From assembly GCA_947178085.1 (NCBI GenBank), contig CAMWWS010000016.1, positions 1-16,968 on the forward strand: a stretch of DNA of 16,968 bases, given 5' to 3'. Below the pieces are notes generated by a model. It was not told the origin of the DNA, made no database searches, and saw only the letters and a program-made list of their open reading frames with translations. The position numbers and the translations under genes are program-made. Shown piece after piece: positions 5,079-14,030 of the stretch (positions are counted from its first letter, which is position 1; the number at the start of each line of letters is the position of its first letter). The DNA is from an uncultured Lachnospiraceae bacterium (lineage in GTDB: Bacteria; Bacillota_A; Clostridia; Lachnospirales; Lachnospiraceae).

Positions 5079-6140
5079 TTAGCATGAATGGTCTGCCCAC
5101 GCCTGATATATCTGCGCAATCACCTGCTCGATAGGCGCTTTTCTGATTTCCACATCCATGATTCCGTCAGCCTTCGAAAGTCTCTCTAACAATACTTTGA
5201 CAGGCAGGTGGGATAAGTCCGCCTCGAATTCAAAAACTCCGCGATTTGCGCTTAAGAGCCTGCAGCCCTCAAGCTGAGGTTCTCTGCCGTCCGTGGTAAC
5301 GATGAAATGTGTGAGATTTCCCGTAATGTCGCGCAATCCATCGAAGCTGCCGTCAAAGGCGAGCTTTCCCTTGGAAATCATCAGAATTCTCTGCGTCATC
5401 TCCTCCAGATCATCCATATCATGACTGGTTACCAGAATTGTCGCGCCATTCTCACGATTAATTTTTTTAAGAAAGTCAATCATCTGGCGCTTTGCCACTA
5501 CATCCAGTCCCAGTGTCGGTTCATCTAGCAAAATCAGCTCCGGCGAATGCAGCAGCATCATTGCCAGGTCTGCCCTCATTCGCTGCCCCAGAGACAATTC
5601 TCTGGCGAAGGTGTTCCTAATTTCACCAATATCCAACAATTCCGTCACCATATCCAGATTCCGTTTGTACACCGTATCCGGGATATCCCATACTACCTTT
5701 TTCCATTCAAAGCTCTGTATAATCGGATGGTCCCACCAAAGTTCCGTGCGGTTTCCAAACAGCACTCCGAGCTTTTTCATAAGAGCTATTCTGTCTTTCT
5801 CCGGGGACATTCCTAACACGGATATAGCCCCTTCTGTGGGTTGAAGTATGCCTGAGAGCAGCTTCATTGTGGTACTTTTGCCGGCTCCGTTTGGACCTGC
5901 ATACGCTACGAACTCGCCACGCTTAATCTGAAAAGAAACATTGTCAAGCGCAGTCACGATTTGCTTTTCCTGCTTGAAAAATTTTCTAATTCCTTTCTTT
6001 GCGGAATGGTTCTCATTCCCGGAATGGTCTGTATTTCGTCGCCACTGTGTAAACGACTTACTCACCGAATCCACCTTCACCACTATGTCATCATGAGCGG
6101 TGTCCGCCTGAAACATATCTATTGATTCCTTTTTTAACAT
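5079..6140 (-). CDS. ABC-2 exporter ATP-binding subunit
   Basis: 353 residues from the chosen ATG. Walker A is AGPNGAGKSTT (about residues 81-91), the signature region is ELSLGQRMRADLA, Walker B is LILLDEPTLGLD, and the H-loop His is in VTSHDMDDLEE. The ~35-residue insertion between the first strand (VDSVSKSF) and the Walker A region, rich in K/R, is typical of the COG4586-type ATPases that work with a pair of ABC-2 permeases. It is the last gene of a three-gene operon and overlaps the preceding permease by about 50 nt. The reading frame is open up to 6221; the ATG at 6140 (AGGAAAGGA ten bases upstream) is preferred, and an ATG at 6116 with a similar site is an alternative. Substrate unknown; export rather than import is inferred from the family. 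Confidence 0.9.
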   Translation of the reverse strand: MLKKESIDMFQADTAHDDIVVKVDSVSKSFTQWRRNTDHSGNENHSAKKGIRKFFKQEKQIVTALDNVSFQIKRGEFVAYAGPNGAGKSTTMKLLSGILQPTEGAISVLGMSPEKDRIALMKKLGVLFGNRTELWWDHPIIQSFEWKKVVWDIPDTVYKRNLDMVTELLDIGEIRNTFARELSLGQRMRADLAMMLLHSPELILLDEPTLGLDVVAKRQMIDFLKKINRENGATILVTSHDMDDLEEMTQRILMISKGKLAFDGSFDGLRDITGNLTHFIVTTDGREPQLEGCRLLSANRGVFEFEADLSHLPVKVLLERLSKADGIMDVEIRKAPIEQVIAQIYQAWADHSC

Positions 6141-6942
6141 AATATCTAAATCCTTTCCTGAAAAAATAAGTTGCGCCCATTGATATAAAAAGGGCAAATA
6201 TTGCCGGATAAATGCTTTCAAATGTTGCCGTCTTCCCCAGCAGTATCATTGTCGGAAACCACGCCATAAGACCTGCCGGAAAAACAGTCAGCAGCGGGTA
6301 CCTGATATACAACGGCATACCGGATAGCGGAAAAGTCATGGTACGCTCCATACTGTAAACCACTGCACTTGATATCTCCTCACACTGTACCGGAGCATAA
6401 AATGCAAGACTTGAAAACAGATAAGAAATCGCCACAACTATTACCATGCTGATCATCATCTGGAGAATCAGCATTCCCGGCCACCACCACGGTATAACCG
6501 TTTCCATTCTGCATACAGCCACCAACAGCATCCCGATTCCTGAAAGGAAACCGGCGGAACCGGTAAAAGGAAAAATTCCCACCGTCAACTGAACTGCATA
6601 AGGAACAGGCATAATAAACATATGCTCCCACTGTCCCCTGCCGATAATCCTACTTGGGAACAGCGCATTACATCCGCCCATCATATTTAAGAAACCCATC
6701 ACAATATTTCCATATGCCAGCATGAATAAAACTTCATACCTGTCCATACCGCCAATCCCGCCGAATTTCCATGCCAGAAGGAATATTCCCGAAATTGACG
6801 ATATATTTGATACAATATCAGCAATTATAACGATTGCCATGAATTTACTATCCCGCATCAGAGAAGCCAGATCCATCCGGGCGTATATTCCAAGCAGTTG
6901 AAAATATCTCTTTATTCCATAAAAACCTTTATTTTTACCCAC
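6091..6942 (-). CDS. ABC-2 family permease (second of pair)
   Basis: 283 residues with about six membrane segments after a short cytoplasmic N-terminus (KRYFQLLGIYARMDLASLMRD). It ends in a basic tail (FRKGFRYYVKKGINRYVSGG). The N-terminal region and the loop organisation fit the ABC-2 permeases of the COG4587/COG3694 type that act as heterodimers with a COG4586 ATPase. The start is a GTG that overlaps the upstream permease gene by 8 nt, with GGATGGTGAG as ribosome site; a start further downstream is less likely given the tight overlap. Translational coupling of all three subunits is suggested. The transported substrate cannot be told from the sequence. Confidence 0.85.
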   Translation of the reverse strand: MGKNKGFYGIKRYFQLLGIYARMDLASLMRDSKFMAIVIIADIVSNISSISGIFLLAWKFGGIGGMDRYEVLFMLAYGNIVMGFLNMMGGCNALFPSRIIGRGQWEHMFIMPVPYAVQLTVGIFPFTGSAGFLSGIGMLLVAVCRMETVIPWWWPGMLILQMMISMVIVVAISYLFSSLAFYAPVQCEEISSAVVYSMERTMTFPLSGMPLYIRYPLLTVFPAGLMAWFPTMILLGKTATFESIYPAIFALFISMGATYFFRKGFRYYVKKGINRYVSGGHRS

Positions 6943-7705
6943 CGAAACTCACCATCCTCTCTCTGGATTTTTCAAACCACACGGCTGCTGTAATCCATAT
7001 CACTACATTCCAGAAAAGCTGCACCGGAATTATCTCAGAAGCCTCTGCGCTTCCTACATACAGCGATAAAAAGGCACCGCCCAGACTGCCGAAAGGCTGA
7101 AATCTAATCCACTTGTCCATGCCAAACGGAAGTATTTTGAACGGTATCACTGTACCTGAAAAAAATGATGTCACCGCGCTTCTGATAACATAGGTGAGCC
7201 ATGAAACATTGCGCAGCCTGACTGTAACGCAGTAAAACAGAAATTCAAAAGCAAACCCAAGCGATATGCTCAGCACCAGTGACGGAATCACCCACAGGGT
7301 ATTGGGCAGTATCCTTATCTTTAGCAGAGGAGCAGCCAAAAACATCGGCGCCGAGAACAACAGCAGCATCGGTATCCATTCTCCGATCGTCCTTGAAATG
7401 ACCTGACCGAATACCGGCAGAGGGCGGGTAAACATTTCCATGCTTCTGGTATCATAATCCCACGCCGATAAACACGTATTTACAATCATCATATCCGCCA
7501 GAAGCGTATTCACATAAGTATAGCTTAAAAGCTGCGAAACCGTCATATCCGCCTCATATCCGCTTTCCGTCAATGATTTCCAGATAAACATTACCGGTAT
7601 CAGATATACCACTTTCATGATCATATCCGGAAACATATATAGCACACCGCCGCCCGTCTTACCATGCATAGCCATCCGGGCAGTCGAAATATATTTACTT
7701 ATCAT
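6935..7705 (-). CDS. ABC-2 family permease (first of pair)
   Basis: 256 residues, beginning MISKYISTARMAMHGKTGGG and followed by about six hydrophobic segments. The conserved-looking block SWLTYVIRSAVTSFFSGTVIPFKILPFG sits before the last segments, as in ABC-2 permeases of the COG4587/COG3694 group. The ATG at 7705 is preceded by GAGAGGAT at good spacing; an in-frame ATG five codons upstream lacks a ribosome site and is rejected. It is the first gene of the exporter operon. Upstream lies a 58-codon ORF and a strong terminator (7807-7845) about 100 nt before this start. Transcription from the small gene's promoter could thus reach the operon only by readthrough. I see no convincing promoter in 7706-7806. 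Confidence 0.85.
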   Translation of the reverse strand: MISKYISTARMAMHGKTGGGVLYMFPDMIMKVVYLIPVMFIWKSLTESGYEADMTVSQLLSYTYVNTLLADMMIVNTCLSAWDYDTRSMEMFTRPLPVFGQVISRTIGEWIPMLLLFSAPMFLAAPLLKIRILPNTLWVIPSLVLSISLGFAFEFLFYCVTVRLRNVSWLTYVIRSAVTSFFSGTVIPFKILPFGMDKWIRFQPFGSLGGAFLSLYVGSAEASEIIPVQLFWNVVIWITAAVWFEKSRERMVSFGG

Positions 7706-7765
7706 TATCAATCCTCTCATTCTGCTGCTTACGCGGCGATATTATTTATGTTGTCTGTCATTACT

Positions 7766-7806: not shown

Positions 7807-7845
7807 AAAAATGCCCTGTACAGACTGTTTTGTCTGCACAAGGCA
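7807..7845 (-). terminator. Rho-independent terminator, copy A (after the 58-codon ORF)
   Basis: Minus-strand RNA forms a 14-bp stem (arms 7845-7832 and 7825-7812, loop AAAACA, two G-U pairs) followed by five T. It sits 57 nt past the stop codon of the small ORF and about 100 nt before the ABC exporter start. Two internal positions pair only in minus-strand RNA. It is part of a 58-bp repeat whose second copy follows clpP (11098-11155). Its first arm and loop can also pair with 7946-7964 inside the small ORF. Confidence 0.85.
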
Positions 7846-7864
7846 CTCGCTTCTGACCGCAAAT
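7807..7864 (-). repeat. 58-bp terminator repeat, copy A
   Basis: Matches 11098-11155 at 54 of 58 positions with no gaps; all four differences are transitions (C/T or G/A). The similarity extends about 20 nt past the hairpin into its 5' flank (AGAAGCGAGTGC on the minus strand), so it is more than two similar stems. Confidence 0.85.
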
Positions 7865-7902
7865 CCTGCATAATAGAAGAATAGGTATCCTGTAAATATA
7901 GT

Positions 7903-8079
7903 TTACAAGACTGTCATACTCTCTGTTATTCCGTCAAATGGTGAGCTGCATACAAAACAATCCGTTTCCCAAAAAAGGGCATAGTTATCCCCTGCGGTTC
8001 CTGCTTTGTATGTGAATCTGCGTACGATGTCACTGCCGTTAAATAATTTCTTAGCAATCAGAACTTCGCATTGTTTCAT
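7903..8079 (-). CDS. 58-residue small protein or leader peptide
   Basis: A short ORF with every sign of a real gene: promoter TTGCAA-N17-TAAAAT (8112-8140), ribosome site AAAGGTGGTGA seven bases before the ATG, and terminator copy A downstream. The peptide starts MKQCEVLIAKKLFNG and ends CFVCSSPFDGITESMTVL. It has no signal peptide or membrane segment, contains three Cys (4, 41, 44; a CFVC motif) and is rich in Ser/Thr near the C-terminus. I do not recognise a family. Two readings are open. It may be a leader peptide controlling the ABC exporter, because codons 39-45 are complementary to the terminator. Or it may be a small substrate or partner of the nearby LanC-like protein; a Cys plus Ser/Thr-rich tail would fit, but no dehydratase is present. 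In-frame GTG codons four and three codons upstream are part of the ribosome site. Confidence 0.65.
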   Translation of the reverse strand: MKQCEVLIAKKLFNGSDIVRRFTYKAGTAGDNYALFWETDCFVCSSPFDGITESMTVL

Positions 8080-8111
8080 ATCTCTCACCACCTTTCATCA
8101 AAGTTGAATTT

Positions 8112-8140
8112 ATTTTACATTATTTTATATAGGTTTGCAA
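8112..8140 (-). promoter_or_regulatory. Promoter of the 58-codon ORF
   Basis: On the minus strand TTGCAA (8135-8140), 17-nt spacer, TAAAAT (8112-8117). The predicted start lies about 26 nt before the small ORF's ATG. One mismatch from consensus in each hexamer. This makes the small gene independent of the NhaC gene 166 nt upstream, for which no clear terminator is seen. Confidence 0.7.
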
Positions 8141-9617: not shown

Positions 9618-10994
9618 TTATTCCTTTCCCGATTCCGCAAACGGATCATCAGGCAGACGATTCCAATGGAATTGTTTGCTTTCCGCCAAATACATTTGTA
9701 ATAAAACAGAAGCAATTCCGGCGATTCCGTCATAGTATCCCAGATCGACTGTCAGGAAATCGGGTTTTACACGCCAAAATGCCATTGACCATAAAGTTGT
9801 CCCGTCTTCCTGGTCTTTTCTTTCTCCCATAAGAACAGCCGCCGTCCTTCTTGCAAGGTCTAAATACCGTGGTTCACCCACCGATTCATAAAGCCCCAAA
9901 AAGAATTGCAGCATGCCTGCATGCCCACAGCAGAAACATTGTGTATTCCAAAGTCCGACAGACTGTTTCTCCGGCGCACGCATAGACTCAATTCCGTCTA
10001 TCATGGCATTTATTTCATCCAGATACTGCTGTTTTCCCGTAATCTGATACAGTTTATAATAGAGCTTTGCATTGCCTCCGACACCATGACACGAGCTCAA
10101 GAAATAAAAAGGAGTATCAGCTTCCGTGTCATATGGGATTAAATAGCCTTTTTCCTGCTGAATACGTATTTCAGACAGATACACCGTACACCTTATTGCA
10201 GCGTCCAGATATTTCTCATCCTTAGTAAATTCATATAATAACGTAAGCAAATATCCTGCTCCGGCTGACCCAAACTCATAATTCGGCCTAGTGCCCGGTC
10301 CAGGCCATCCTCGGAATTCCAGTCCCCCTTTTTCCGTAGGGATTCCCTGCTTTATGTATCGTTCTGCCGCTTCCAAAAGCACTTTTTTCGTCTCTTCTCT
10401 GCCAAACTGACGATAAAGATGAAGAAGCAGTAAAATAACCCCTCCATCCATCGCTATAGCCGGGGAACCGGTCCAAAAAGCTCCGTTTTCATCATGTTTT
10501 ACCGAATTTATGTAGTAGGATTCTATCTCCATAGCACCTTGCTTTGCGTTTTCATCCTGAATGCTCCTGTAAATTTCAGAAAATACCAGTCCGATACCTC
10601 CAACACCCATATACAGGCCATCATCCATCTCTTTCATGCCGAATATAGGCGACTGTTCAAAATATTCTTTCCAATGCACAGCCAAGTATCCGGTTCCCTC
10701 TTTTAGAATATGCAGAAACTTCTCTTCCCTTGTTGTTTCCCAAAGTTTGAGATAGTAATATAGAATACCGCTGGTTCCGCTGTAAAAGGACTGATCTACT
10801 TCCTGTTCGCCAATCATACTCCATGTTGCGCCTTCCTTTTTCCAAAAAATCCCATCCGAGTCTTTATGCGAATATTTTGCAATAAACTTTTCAGCCCGCA
10901 AAGAAATATCCAGATAGTTTTCCAGACCGGATACCTTTTCGGTTCGATAAGGTTTACCTATCCTGATTTTTTGCAAGTTTTCTTCTGTTGTCAT
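9618..10994 (-). CDS. Stand-alone LanC-like protein with Cys-Cys-Gly zinc motif
   Basis: 458 residues with the alpha/alpha-toroid repeats of the LanC family: GxxG-type turns near 72, 130, 184, 242, 303, 357 and 422. LanC enzymes use zinc to activate Cys thiols that add to dehydro-amino acids, making lanthionine rings. Likely zinc ligands here are C302 in SSCHGVGG and C355/C356 in CFCCGHAG. The second motif reads Cys-Cys-Gly where most LanC proteins have Cys-His-Gly, like the Cys3 zinc sites known from ProcM-type LanM enzymes. The usual AHG in the fourth repeat (NisC His212) reads SAG here, so that active-site His seems missing. No LanB or LanM dehydratase is in the window. The ATG at 10994 follows AGCAGGTG; the open frame above it begins with GTG inside the promoter's -10 and is rejected. 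A classical lantibiotic role is doubtful; a thiol-addition or sugar-like substrate role is possible. Confidence 0.8.
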   Translation of the reverse strand: MTTEENLQKIRIGKPYRTEKVSGLENYLDISLRAEKFIAKYSHKDSDGIFWKKEGATWSMIGEQEVDQSFYSGTSGILYYYLKLWETTREEKFLHILKEGTGYLAVHWKEYFEQSPIFGMKEMDDGLYMGVGGIGLVFSEIYRSIQDENAKQGAMEIESYYINSVKHDENGAFWTGSPAIAMDGGVILLLLHLYRQFGREETKKVLLEAAERYIKQGIPTEKGGLEFRGWPGPGTRPNYEFGSAGAGYLLTLLYEFTKDEKYLDAAIRCTVYLSEIRIQQEKGYLIPYDTEADTPFYFLSSCHGVGGNAKLYYKLYQITGKQQYLDEINAMIDGIESMRAPEKQSVGLWNTQCFCCGHAGMLQFFLGLYESVGEPRYLDLARRTAAVLMGERKDQEDGTTLWSMAFWRVKPDFLTVDLGYYDGIAGIASVLLQMYLAESKQFHWNRLPDDPFAESGKE

Positions 10995-11027
10995 AATACA
11001 CCTGCTTTCTTTTTTCTTTATCACAAG

Positions 11028-11056: not shown

Positions 11057-11094
11057 TAGGTTATATATGTTTAGTATGAATAAAAGAATTAATT

Positions 11095-11136
11095 AAAAAA
11101 AATGCCCTGCACAGACTGTTTTGTCCGCACAAAGCA
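11095..11136 (-). terminator. Rho-independent terminator, copy B (after clpP)
   Basis: Minus-strand RNA forms a 14-bp stem (arms 11136-11123 and 11116-11103, loop AAAACA) followed by eight T. Five of the pairs are G-U and would be A-C mismatches on the plus strand, which fixes the direction. It lies 53 nt past the clpP stop codon, the same spacing as copy A has to the small ORF. Confidence 0.88.
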
Positions 11137-11155
11137 CTCGCTTCTGACTGCAAAT
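11098..11155 (-). repeat. 58-bp terminator repeat, copy B
   Basis: Second copy of the element at 7807-7864, 54 of 58 identical. The two direct copies bracket the LanC, NhaC and 58-codon genes (about 3.3 kb apart). Confidence 0.85.
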
Positions 11156-11189
11156 TCAACACCTTATATAGGAATGGAGTTGCAGCATT

Positions 11190-12314: not shown

Positions 12315-14030
12315 TCATATAAGCACCGCCGCTTCATAGTCTCCTAAGCAGCCTGAAAAACTTTGACCGCTCACAAGATTTCTTCTGCCTTCCAAATCCG
12401 GCAGTTCAACCTTCCCCTGCTGCATATGAAATATTACTGCTATGTGCTGGTTCCCCAAATGCCTTTCCATATAAATAAGTCCTTCCGTATCATCTTCGTA
12501 TTGTTTTACAATATCGCCTGATGTCAATACCGCATGCTCATGCCTGATTCGGATAAGCGTCTGATAGTAGCGAAAAATCTCCTTATTCTGCCTTTCTTCC
12601 TCCCACAGCATCCCCCGTCTGCAATCAGGGTCAGGTCCTCCATCCAAGGCTACCTCATCACCGTAATAAATCATTGGCATGCCGGGAAGCAGGATTTGCA
12701 GTGCCGCCGCCAGTTTCTGCTTTTTAATATTTTTGCCTACACTGTGTGAAAACCTCGCCGTATCATGGCTGTCTATAAAATTCCATAGGTATCCCTCCAA
12801 AGCCTTATTCAGATTTCCCTTCATAAAATTGAGCCGTCCCACAAATGAGCTCACACTTAAACTTTCTGCGACAATGAAGTCCTGCACTGCATGATAAAAC
12901 TGATAATTCATAATGCTGTCCCACTCGTCGCCTTCTAAAAAGTCACCGGCAAAATGCCAGATTTCGCCAACGATTAAAACATCCTTCTTTACCGCCTTTA
13001 TCTCTCTTCTGAATCTCTTCCAGAAAGCATGATGTATCTCATCCGCCACATCTAAGCGCCAGCCGTCAATATCGCATTCCTTTATCCAATATTTAGCTAC
13101 ATCAATTACATAATCTGCGGTCTCTTTATTCTGTAAATTCAGTTTCGGCATAAACGCGGCATAACTGAATGTCTTGTAATTAGGCTTTTTCCCCCATTCC
13201 ATTACAAGCGGAAAATCCTCAATATAATACCAGTTCAGATATTCGGACTTTTCTTTCTTCTCCCTGATATCTTTAAAAGCAAAAAAGTCCACTGCCGTGT
13301 GATTAAATACGCCGTCCAGAATAACGTGCATTCCCAGTTCATGCGCCTTGCCGACAAGCTCCTTTAAATTTTCCTTAGTTCCAAAAGAAGGGTCAATGCT
13401 GTAATAATCATCTATATTATATTTATGGCTGGAATTGGAGCTAAAAATCGGCGTCATATAGATAATATCCGCGCCTAATTCCTTTATGTAATGCAAATGT
13501 TCAATTATCCCCCGAAGAGAACCCTTTAAATCAGCCTTGTGGTCAATCGGAGCCTGATACCAGACTTCTTCCGGGATATCTTTATCTGTGGCAAAACGGG
13601 ACGGAAAAATCTGATATACCACCTTATTTTTCGCCCAGTCTGGCAGTTCAAAGATTTCCTCTTCTCTGAGATTCTGCGGACAGTCAAACATCTTATCAAT
13701 ATCTGTGATACATTCATCATAAAAATTGTGGTTTCCGTAATAAGTCACTTTACCCGATGCATCTTTTATCTCGAAAAAATATCTGAAACAGACCACATCA
13801 ATGTCTATGATTACCTCATAGTAATCAATATAATTATCAGAATACGCAATCTTCATCTGTCGCTCTTGCCTGGTATCCATAAATTTAACCGGCAGATACT
13901 TTTCCTGACCATGAAGGATAACCTTTACCACATCCTCTTTTTTGGTCTCAAGCCGGAACAAAAAACGTCCCTTCTCCACTGCATAACAATACTTTTTATC
14001 TGCAAAATGTCTGATTGCCGCATATTCCAT
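12315..14030 (-). CDS. GH13 neopullulanase/cyclomaltodextrinase-type alpha-glycosidase
   Basis: 571 residues. An N-terminal beta domain (about 1-125, CBM34-like) precedes a GH13 (beta/alpha)8 barrel. Conserved regions are intact: DGVFNH (239-244), nucleophile D327 in GWRLDVAD, acid/base E356 in VGEIWH, and D423 in FIDSHDTARF. A short C-terminal beta domain ends in YEAAVLI. The MPKLNL motif and N-terminal domain place it with GH13_20 enzymes that hydrolyse cyclodextrins, pullulan or maltodextrins. No signal peptide is seen, so it acts inside the cell on imported alpha-glucans. The ATG at 14030 follows AAAAGGAGAG; the open frame to 14063 lacks a ribosome site. It is a single-gene unit divergent from the two-component genes, with a 225-nt spacer. 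Confidence 0.93.
   Translation of the reverse strand: MEYAAIRHFADKKYCYAVEKGRFLFRLETKKEDVVKVILHGQEKYLPVKFMDTRQERQMKIAYSDNYIDYYEVIIDIDVVCFRYFFEIKDASGKVTYYGNHNFYDECITDIDKMFDCPQNLREEEIFELPDWAKNKVVYQIFPSRFATDKDIPEEVWYQAPIDHKADLKGSLRGIIEHLHYIKELGADIIYMTPIFSSNSSHKYNIDDYYSIDPSFGTKENLKELVGKAHELGMHVILDGVFNHTAVDFFAFKDIREKKEKSEYLNWYYIEDFPLVMEWGKKPNYKTFSYAAFMPKLNLQNKETADYVIDVAKYWIKECDIDGWRLDVADEIHHAFWKRFRREIKAVKKDVLIVGEIWHFAGDFLEGDEWDSIMNYQFYHAVQDFIVAESLSVSSFVGRLNFMKGNLNKALEGYLWNFIDSHDTARFSHSVGKNIKKQKLAAALQILLPGMPMIYYGDEVALDGGPDPDCRRGMLWEEERQNKEIFRYYQTLIRIRHEHAVLTSGDIVKQYEDDTEGLIYMERHLGNQHIAVIFHMQQGKVELPDLEGRRNLVSGQSFSGCLGDYEAAVLI

Follow-up and report, generated by a model that had tools for sequence, protein, structure and literature searches.

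The minus-strand region 8095–7807 of the window (the whole stretch of DNA analysed, 16,968 nucleotides from an uncultured Lachnospiraceae bacterium) very probably represents a ribosome-sensing transcription attenuator of a three-gene ABC exporter, in which the stalling of ribosomes by antibiotics would be the signal. Termination and readthrough are themselves predicted from the sequence. It is one of a larger group of predicted leaders that also precede a gene for an ABC-F ribosome-protection-like protein.

The leader ORF comprises 58 codons on the minus strand (8079–7906; 7903–8079 with its stop codon at 7905–7903) and is preceded by the Shine-Dalgarno stretch GAAAGGTGGTGAG, in agreement with the ORF and ribosome site described in the initial annotation. 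It is a conserved predicted gene, as 36 relatives of the leader peptide were found in databases, 27 of them exactly 58 aa in length. The promoter that had been proposed upstream (TTGCAA-17 nt-TAAAAT, 8112–8140, minus strand) fares less evenly: it matches the consensus at 9 of 12 positions and TTGCAA is kept in 5/10 relatives (alignment A1, by eye), but promoter-like sites are rarer in the 5 kb scanned (6) than in shuffled sequence (mean 12.2), and the candidate is plausible but weak by itself. An intrinsic terminator (7807–7846, minus strand) begins about 56 nt past the leader stop and consists of a hairpin of 15 pairs (7846–7811, -25.1 kcal/mol) and a tract of five U (7811–7807). The exporter follows about 100 nt after it, so that the strong terminator ahead of a three-gene exporter stands as originally described. 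This terminator scores 67.9 bits in the RNA model R1, of which the window itself is one row, and the pattern scan in which the promoter-like sites were counted did not itself list the 7846–7811 hairpin. Comparison of the window with Rfam gave no match at the gathering score, i.e., no described leader or riboswitch.

The exporter is encoded on the minus strand by two permeases and an ATPase. Permease 1 (6935–7720, with its start at 7720 or, as the Shine-Dalgarno-like GAGAGGA would suggest, at 7705) has no Pfam match, and its KpsM-type similarity is far under the cutoff. Permease 2 (6091–6942) belongs to ABC2_membrane_6 (PF06182; 59.3 bits, cutoff 22), and a PDB search with it gave no match. The ATPase (5079–6221) matches PF00005 with 92.7 bits; its best NCBIfam match is the DrrA subfamily, under the cutoff. 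In PADLOC the permeases were without match and the ATPase had generic matches only. A small hairpin ahead of the exporter Shine-Dalgarno (7724–7737, minus strand) can also be seen by eye in relatives, its bases varying among them (GCCGC..GCGGC vs. TGCCG..CGGCA-like, by eye). Elsewhere in the window, a LanC-like protein (9621–11024, minus strand; PF05147, 106.5 bits) is encoded directly before an NhaC-type antiporter, and the terminator half of the leader occurs in a second copy, without leader ORF, behind clpP (11094–11160, minus strand; R1 56.7 bits). In the relative L006 a second terminator-half copy, also without leader ORF, lies behind the exporter and a GH26 region (12747–12794, plus strand; R1 67.2 bits). 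The likeness of these copies reaches somewhat upstream (by eye), and they form direct repeats on either side of LanC-NhaC-leader in the window and, in L006, of the exporter-GH26 block; recombination at the terminator may have given rise to them.

Three RNA segments on the minus strand make up the proposed switch. Segment 1 (8067–8092) covers the Shine-Dalgarno sequence, the start codon and the first codons; segment 2 (7935–7965) corresponds to codons 39–49; and segment 3 (7823–7837) spans the end of the terminator 5′ arm, its loop and the start of the 3′ arm. The complementarity reported between 7964–7946 and 7839–7821 is exact as described (17 of 18 contiguous positions pair, with two G-U pairs and one A-G mismatch). 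The best duplex between the 3′ part of the ORF and the terminator reaches -40.1 kcal/mol, compared to -26.3 on average (sd 3.3) for dinucleotide shuffles, none of which (0/200) was as good. A third element, overlooked by the initial annotation, is the pairing of the ribosome-binding site and start region with codons 39–49: 8092–8067 pairs with 7965–7935 at -28.9 kcal/mol (0/200 shuffles as good), and this pairing is visible in the centroid fold as well as in a direct duplex search. Since codons 39–49 pair with both regions, segment 2 has two mutually exclusive partners, one for the off state (segment 1) and one for the on state (segment 3). Anti-antiterminator (1:2), antiterminator (2:3) and terminator constitute the classical switch arrangement. 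Within the ORF, AGGGGATAACTATGCCCTTTTTT (7971–7993, minus strand) forms a GGG..CCC hairpin followed by a T tract and is a candidate RNA-polymerase pause element. Where the motif of NusG-dependent pauses (hairpin plus TTNTTT) was looked for, the window shows GGG..CCC and TTTTTT, and several leaders have at most five T.

Both pairings leave a covariation signal. Over 22 leaders, which are related to one another and were anchored by hand, 378 of 440 segment 1:2 pairs form, while permuted partners give a mean of 368.9 (sd 2.9; 3/2000 as high), and 297 of 329 segment 2:3 pairs form, with a permuted mean of 289.3 (sd 2.1; 0/2000 as high). Left out were leaders that do not align base for base (L002, L003, L010, which contains N, L051, L052, L040, L044, L045 and the L014–L019/L046–L048 subfamily). 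Changes on both sides were seen at four pairs of 1:2 and two pairs of 2:3: the start stem of L072 has U-A in place of G-C, the antiterminator of L013 and others has A-U in place of U-A, and in L082 all three segments are altered together. The near-constant A-G mismatch of the 2:3 helix has a counterpart in the other helix, since in 1:2 this A is the partner of the start-codon U. The ten close relatives retain the complementarity, and in more distant leaders compensating changes have restored it, which is the covariation that had been suggested as a check.

Duplex tests took the place of covariation for the divergent subfamilies. The 1:2 duplex occurs in all 16 leaders chosen as representatives out of 26 (-20 to -34 kcal/mol) and has z < -3 relative to shuffles in 21 of 28 distinct leaders; it is weaker in L049, L044, L045, L014, L019, L068, and L069. 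The same test on 87 ordinary control genes gave a mean z of -0.12 (sd 1.04) and a minimum of -3.7, reached by one gene. In the broad test of the 2:3 duplex at most 10 of 200 shuffles were as good in only 7/16 leaders, L014 and L019 being at chance; when regions were swapped between leaders the own partner came first in only 5/16, many leaders sharing sequence. The mutual exclusivity claimed for antiterminator and terminator is thus upheld by the anchored covariation and by a minority of leaders in the broad test.

The leader accompanies the exporter wherever the latter was found. At ten genome loci gathered through the leader peptide (MAGs titled Lachnospiraceae or Clostridium, the close relatives referred to above) the exporter lies directly downstream in 10/10. 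Searches with the permease only, which were positive in 9/397 genomes of the family (E 1e-30) and 12/392 of the order (E 1e-20), these sets partly overlapping, added 17 loci. Thirteen of them show leader ORF and terminator directly before the exporter, and the other four (L039, L041, L042, and L043, refetched as L049, L050, L051, and L052) have the order leader, ABC-F ATPase gene, exporter. Near copies (L014/L016 and L019/L046/L047) mean that these 17 are not independent cases. A leader therefore precedes the exporter, or the ABC-F gene directly before it, at 27/27 exporter loci, which on comparative grounds favours the attenuator reading of the initial annotation. An intrinsic terminator lies between ORF and gene in 16/16 representative leaders (-12 to -25 kcal/mol), and the leader ORFs measure 34–79 codons across relatives. 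Some variation among loci deserves mention. L014–L019 and L046–L048 form a distinct leader subfamily, most members of which carry VY(K/Q)CA(H/L/F)F or YCALF (DNA TGCGCC(C/T)(A/T)TTTT), and the permease of the exporters behind them is 33–40% identical to that of the window. Longer leaders (L045, L049, L070, L072, and L076) contain a GGG..TGCCC(A/T)TTT-like element twice, as well as extra hairpins, as if a stall zone had been duplicated. In L007 (8001–8798) permease 1 was matched in two pieces only and the leader ORF is cut to 52 codons, possibly reflecting decay or an assembly error.

The association with the ABC-F gene extends beyond exporter loci. All three ABC-F proteins tested exceed the cutoff (380) of NCBIfam NF000355, ribosomal protection-like, with 456, 419, and 500 bits, and among their best 25 matches they stay under the cutoffs of the Vga, Lsa, Msr, CplR, OptrA and Sal models. 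At E 1e-3 the terminator covariance model R1 matched 52/383 genomes of the order, and many of these matches are due to chance; among the loci examined, ten further full leaders sit before the same ABC-F gene. Nine of these ten genomes are absent among the exporter carriers listed, and the tenth (G425) has an exporter 18 kb off that is preceded by a separate leader (L044). When the ABC-F protein itself served as query, 21 loci were retrieved in 20/358 genomes, and a leader-like region precedes the gene at 20/20 loci with readable upstream sequence (L145 is without upstream sequence; L136 and L080 are the same sequence twice within one genome; the leader of L144 is without ATG start and that of L075 would start with TTG). 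The leaders of L141 and L143 look unlike the others in sequence, yet here too the start region pairs with a stretch located at the end of the ORF or immediately behind it (-23.1 and -18.0 kcal/mol, respectively). L076 is a leader with no ABC-F gene in view. None of seven genomes of the close group of the window had this ABC-F protein at E 1e-100 (93 candidates scored in each).

Other sources of similarity were considered. The terminator 17-mer occurs once in 11/13 genomes (twice in G006 and not at all in G107), as does the segment-2 pattern in 12/13 (absent in G580), so their conservation is not that of a dispersed repeat. No plasmid match was found that would indicate a mobile leader; of six weak matches to viral contigs the three examined are parts of a phage-like ORF, and four further matches examined are due to chance. 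The pattern TGCGCCCWTTTTTRCGR occurs in 8/397 genomes, six times in exporter leaders and twice inside ordinary ORFs, its reversed control occurring in 5/397. The R1 matches L078, L079, L081, L083–L085, L087–L090, and L091–L094 look like ordinary terminators or chance.

Two parts of the leader appear to be selected as RNA. The T-tract hairpin element is nearly invariant in DNA among relatives, while its reading frame varies between leaders: its GCC lies in frame 0 in 28 of 37 leaders, in frame 1 in seven (six without L044) and in frame 2 in two, counts that include matches to stretches other than the element in L044, L015, L045, and L070. In L008 and L009 the stretch GGGGAYAACTATGCCCTTTTTTGG is kept by means of compensating frameshifts which change the peptide from DNYALFW to TMPFFG. 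Segment 2 is likewise read in two frames (25/27 and 2/27 leaders, the latter being L049 and L086) with the same bases, and the N-terminal peptides vary between leader subfamilies. Since both elements keep their bases while the frame changes, it is the RNA rather than the peptide that is selected there.

According to the mechanism proposed, the 58-codon ORF would be translated by ribosomes trailing RNA polymerase. Under free translation the ribosome would clear the ORF, segment 1 would pair with segment 2 (a pairing that would also close the leader's own ribosome-binding site), the terminator would form and the exporter would stay off. If ribosomes were held at about codons 18–30 while others initiated or queued at the start, segment 1 would be covered and segment 2 left free to capture the emerging 5′ arm and loop of the terminator, so that polymerase would read on into the exporter. 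The T-tract hairpin, located just ahead of segment 2, may pause polymerase and keep it in step with the ribosome. In the absence of initiation the off stem should form, and hence translation of the leader ORF should be needed for induction. The inducers are probably ribosome-targeting antibiotics, and the exporter would presumably remove such a stalling compound.

Folding models would place the decision during transcription. At equilibrium, with the start masked or unmasked, the finished terminator wins in 15/16 leaders and only L017 flips. A simple equilibrium fold with masked bases thus shows no switch, but the fold does shift in truncated transcripts. When growing transcripts were folded with the start masked, antiterminator values increased and the terminator formed later in most of the 16 leaders; the effect is strong in L007, L008, L013, L050, and L017, mixed in L049 and absent in L045. 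For the window, masking the start alone brings the antiterminator to just 0.21 in truncated transcripts. In a stall scan of the window with a second ribosome on the start, ribosomes at codons 18–30 give antiterminator values of 0.7–1.0 when the transcript is 8 nt short of the full hairpin, and at the same point stalls from codon 38 onward give mainly the terminator (0.7–1.0). This pattern accords with the stall zone predicted earlier (before codon ~35), again before hairpin completion; 4 nt past completion the terminator stands at 1.0 for every stall position. The pattern across stall positions is irregular in several leaders (e.g., L040, L045). As the complete terminator wins in every window condition modelled, antitermination would have to act kinetically, during transcription, and the outcome would have to be settled before the 3′ arm has fully emerged.

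Four alternative readings were weighed. An attenuator responding to some other translation stress or to a host metabolite which the transporter exports (e.g., a bacteriocin or a self-made lanthipeptide) is unlikely: a start of the LanC-like gene lies some 3 kb upstream of the leader in the window, but neither LanC nor NhaC was found in the fetched loci L001–L010, and in four genomes the exporter lies directly behind the ribosomal-protection-like ABC-F gene. A switch that acts on translation only, the leader gating its own ribosome-binding site and that of the exporter without transcription termination, is very improbable. Segment 1:2 does cover the leader ribosome-binding site, and cplR joins translational and transcriptional attenuation (PMC10201436); against this, a hairpin with U tract is retained in 16/16 representative leaders despite changing sequence, and the exporter ribosome-binding site lies about 100 nt further on.

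An amino-acid attenuator, in which starvation (e.g., for cysteine) would stall the ribosome and open the exporter, is less probable again. TGT/TGC codons do recur in the peptide motifs DCFVC/DCFEC, and a cysteine uORF attenuator has been proposed before cysS elsewhere (PMC8632094). These codons, however, are those of segment 2 and are accounted for by RNA pairing; L049 and L086 read the same bases in another frame as IVLNACH; the genes downstream are the exporter and ABC-F rather than biosynthesis genes; and no codon run for one residue is kept across subfamilies in the listed peptides (by eye), which makes the amino-acid control offered as an alternative in the initial annotation unlikely. 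That the ORF is no more than a small protein gene ending in a terminator of its own, the complementarity being a by-product, is scarcely credible, given that its conserved length (58 aa in 27/36 homologues) is set against frameshifts in L008 and L009 that preserve DNA while altering the peptide, two elements read in more than one frame, N-termini that vary by subfamily, and covariation.

Beyond the ribosome-sensing attenuator itself, a broader proposal is put forward tentatively, as possible rather than probable: the leaders would constitute a family of Lachnospirales leaders in which the 3′ part of the ORF serves both as antiterminator and as lock of the ribosome-binding site, and which, its peptide sequence being free to change, would read no particular peptide but act as a general gauge of slowed initiation and elongation attached to ABC-F and ABC-2 export. 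No description of the leader or the exporter was found among the literature entries listed, few subscription papers being covered. If the proposal is correct, a single module has been attached to two unrelated defences, ABC-F ribosome protection and ABC-2 export, sometimes in one operon. The switch would place an uncharacterised exporter family in the translation-stress response of Lachnospiraceae, via a control shared with ABC-F genes of the ribosome-protection-like type, and would point to loci in commensals that are candidates for inducible antibiotic tolerance. The leaders also offer a natural series, with the three strands rewritten several times, useful for testing a peptide-independent ribosome sensor.

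Control of a resistance gene by a drug-stalled ribosome on a leader ORF is known from the tet(M) leader, and the msrD and ermC leaders operate by the same principle that is proposed here. Arrest in the msrD and ermC leaders is peptide-specific; in the leader peptides of the present family no arrest motif shared by all was seen. Closer parallels are found among leaders that act on transcription, and the best reading is that the present family would work in the manner of vmlR, cplR and bmrB, by ribosome-mediated transcription attenuation. The following comparisons are of architecture, not of sequence. The vmlR leader of Bacillus subtilis (ABC-F) contains a uORF, an anti-antiterminator, a T-rich pause hairpin, a terminator and an antiterminator (PMC9226507), i.e., the same set of elements, and its target is an ABC-F gene as in many relatives here. 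Its uORF, however, has three codons (MIN) and lies inside a hairpin, whereas the present ORFs have 34–79 codons and their own 3′ part usually constitutes the antiterminator strand. Both the vmlR and the tlrB (yxjB) leaders use NusG-dependent pauses (PMC9226507, PMC6851288). In the cplR leader of Clostridioides (ABC-F) a 5′ hairpin sequesters the uORF and is followed by a terminator, and induction needs the uORF start codon (PMC10201436); the hairpin over the uORF start with a terminator after it recalls the present arrangement, but the uORF of cplR is MR[I/M] and its terminator stem covers the cplR Shine-Dalgarno sequence. The bmrB leader gene of B. subtilis, 162 bp long and ending 119 bp before the multidrug ABC transporter bmrCD, forms three alternative stems and is induced by 50S antibiotics (PMC4191407). 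It shares with the present leader a gene-length ORF before an ABC transporter and alternative stems, and differs in that its terminator lies inside the ORF, whereas here it lies about 56 nt past the stop, with the start region taking part in the switch. The present family differs from these systems in the long ORF whose 3′ coding part would be used as a switch strand, and in serving both ABC-F genes and an ABC-2 exporter.
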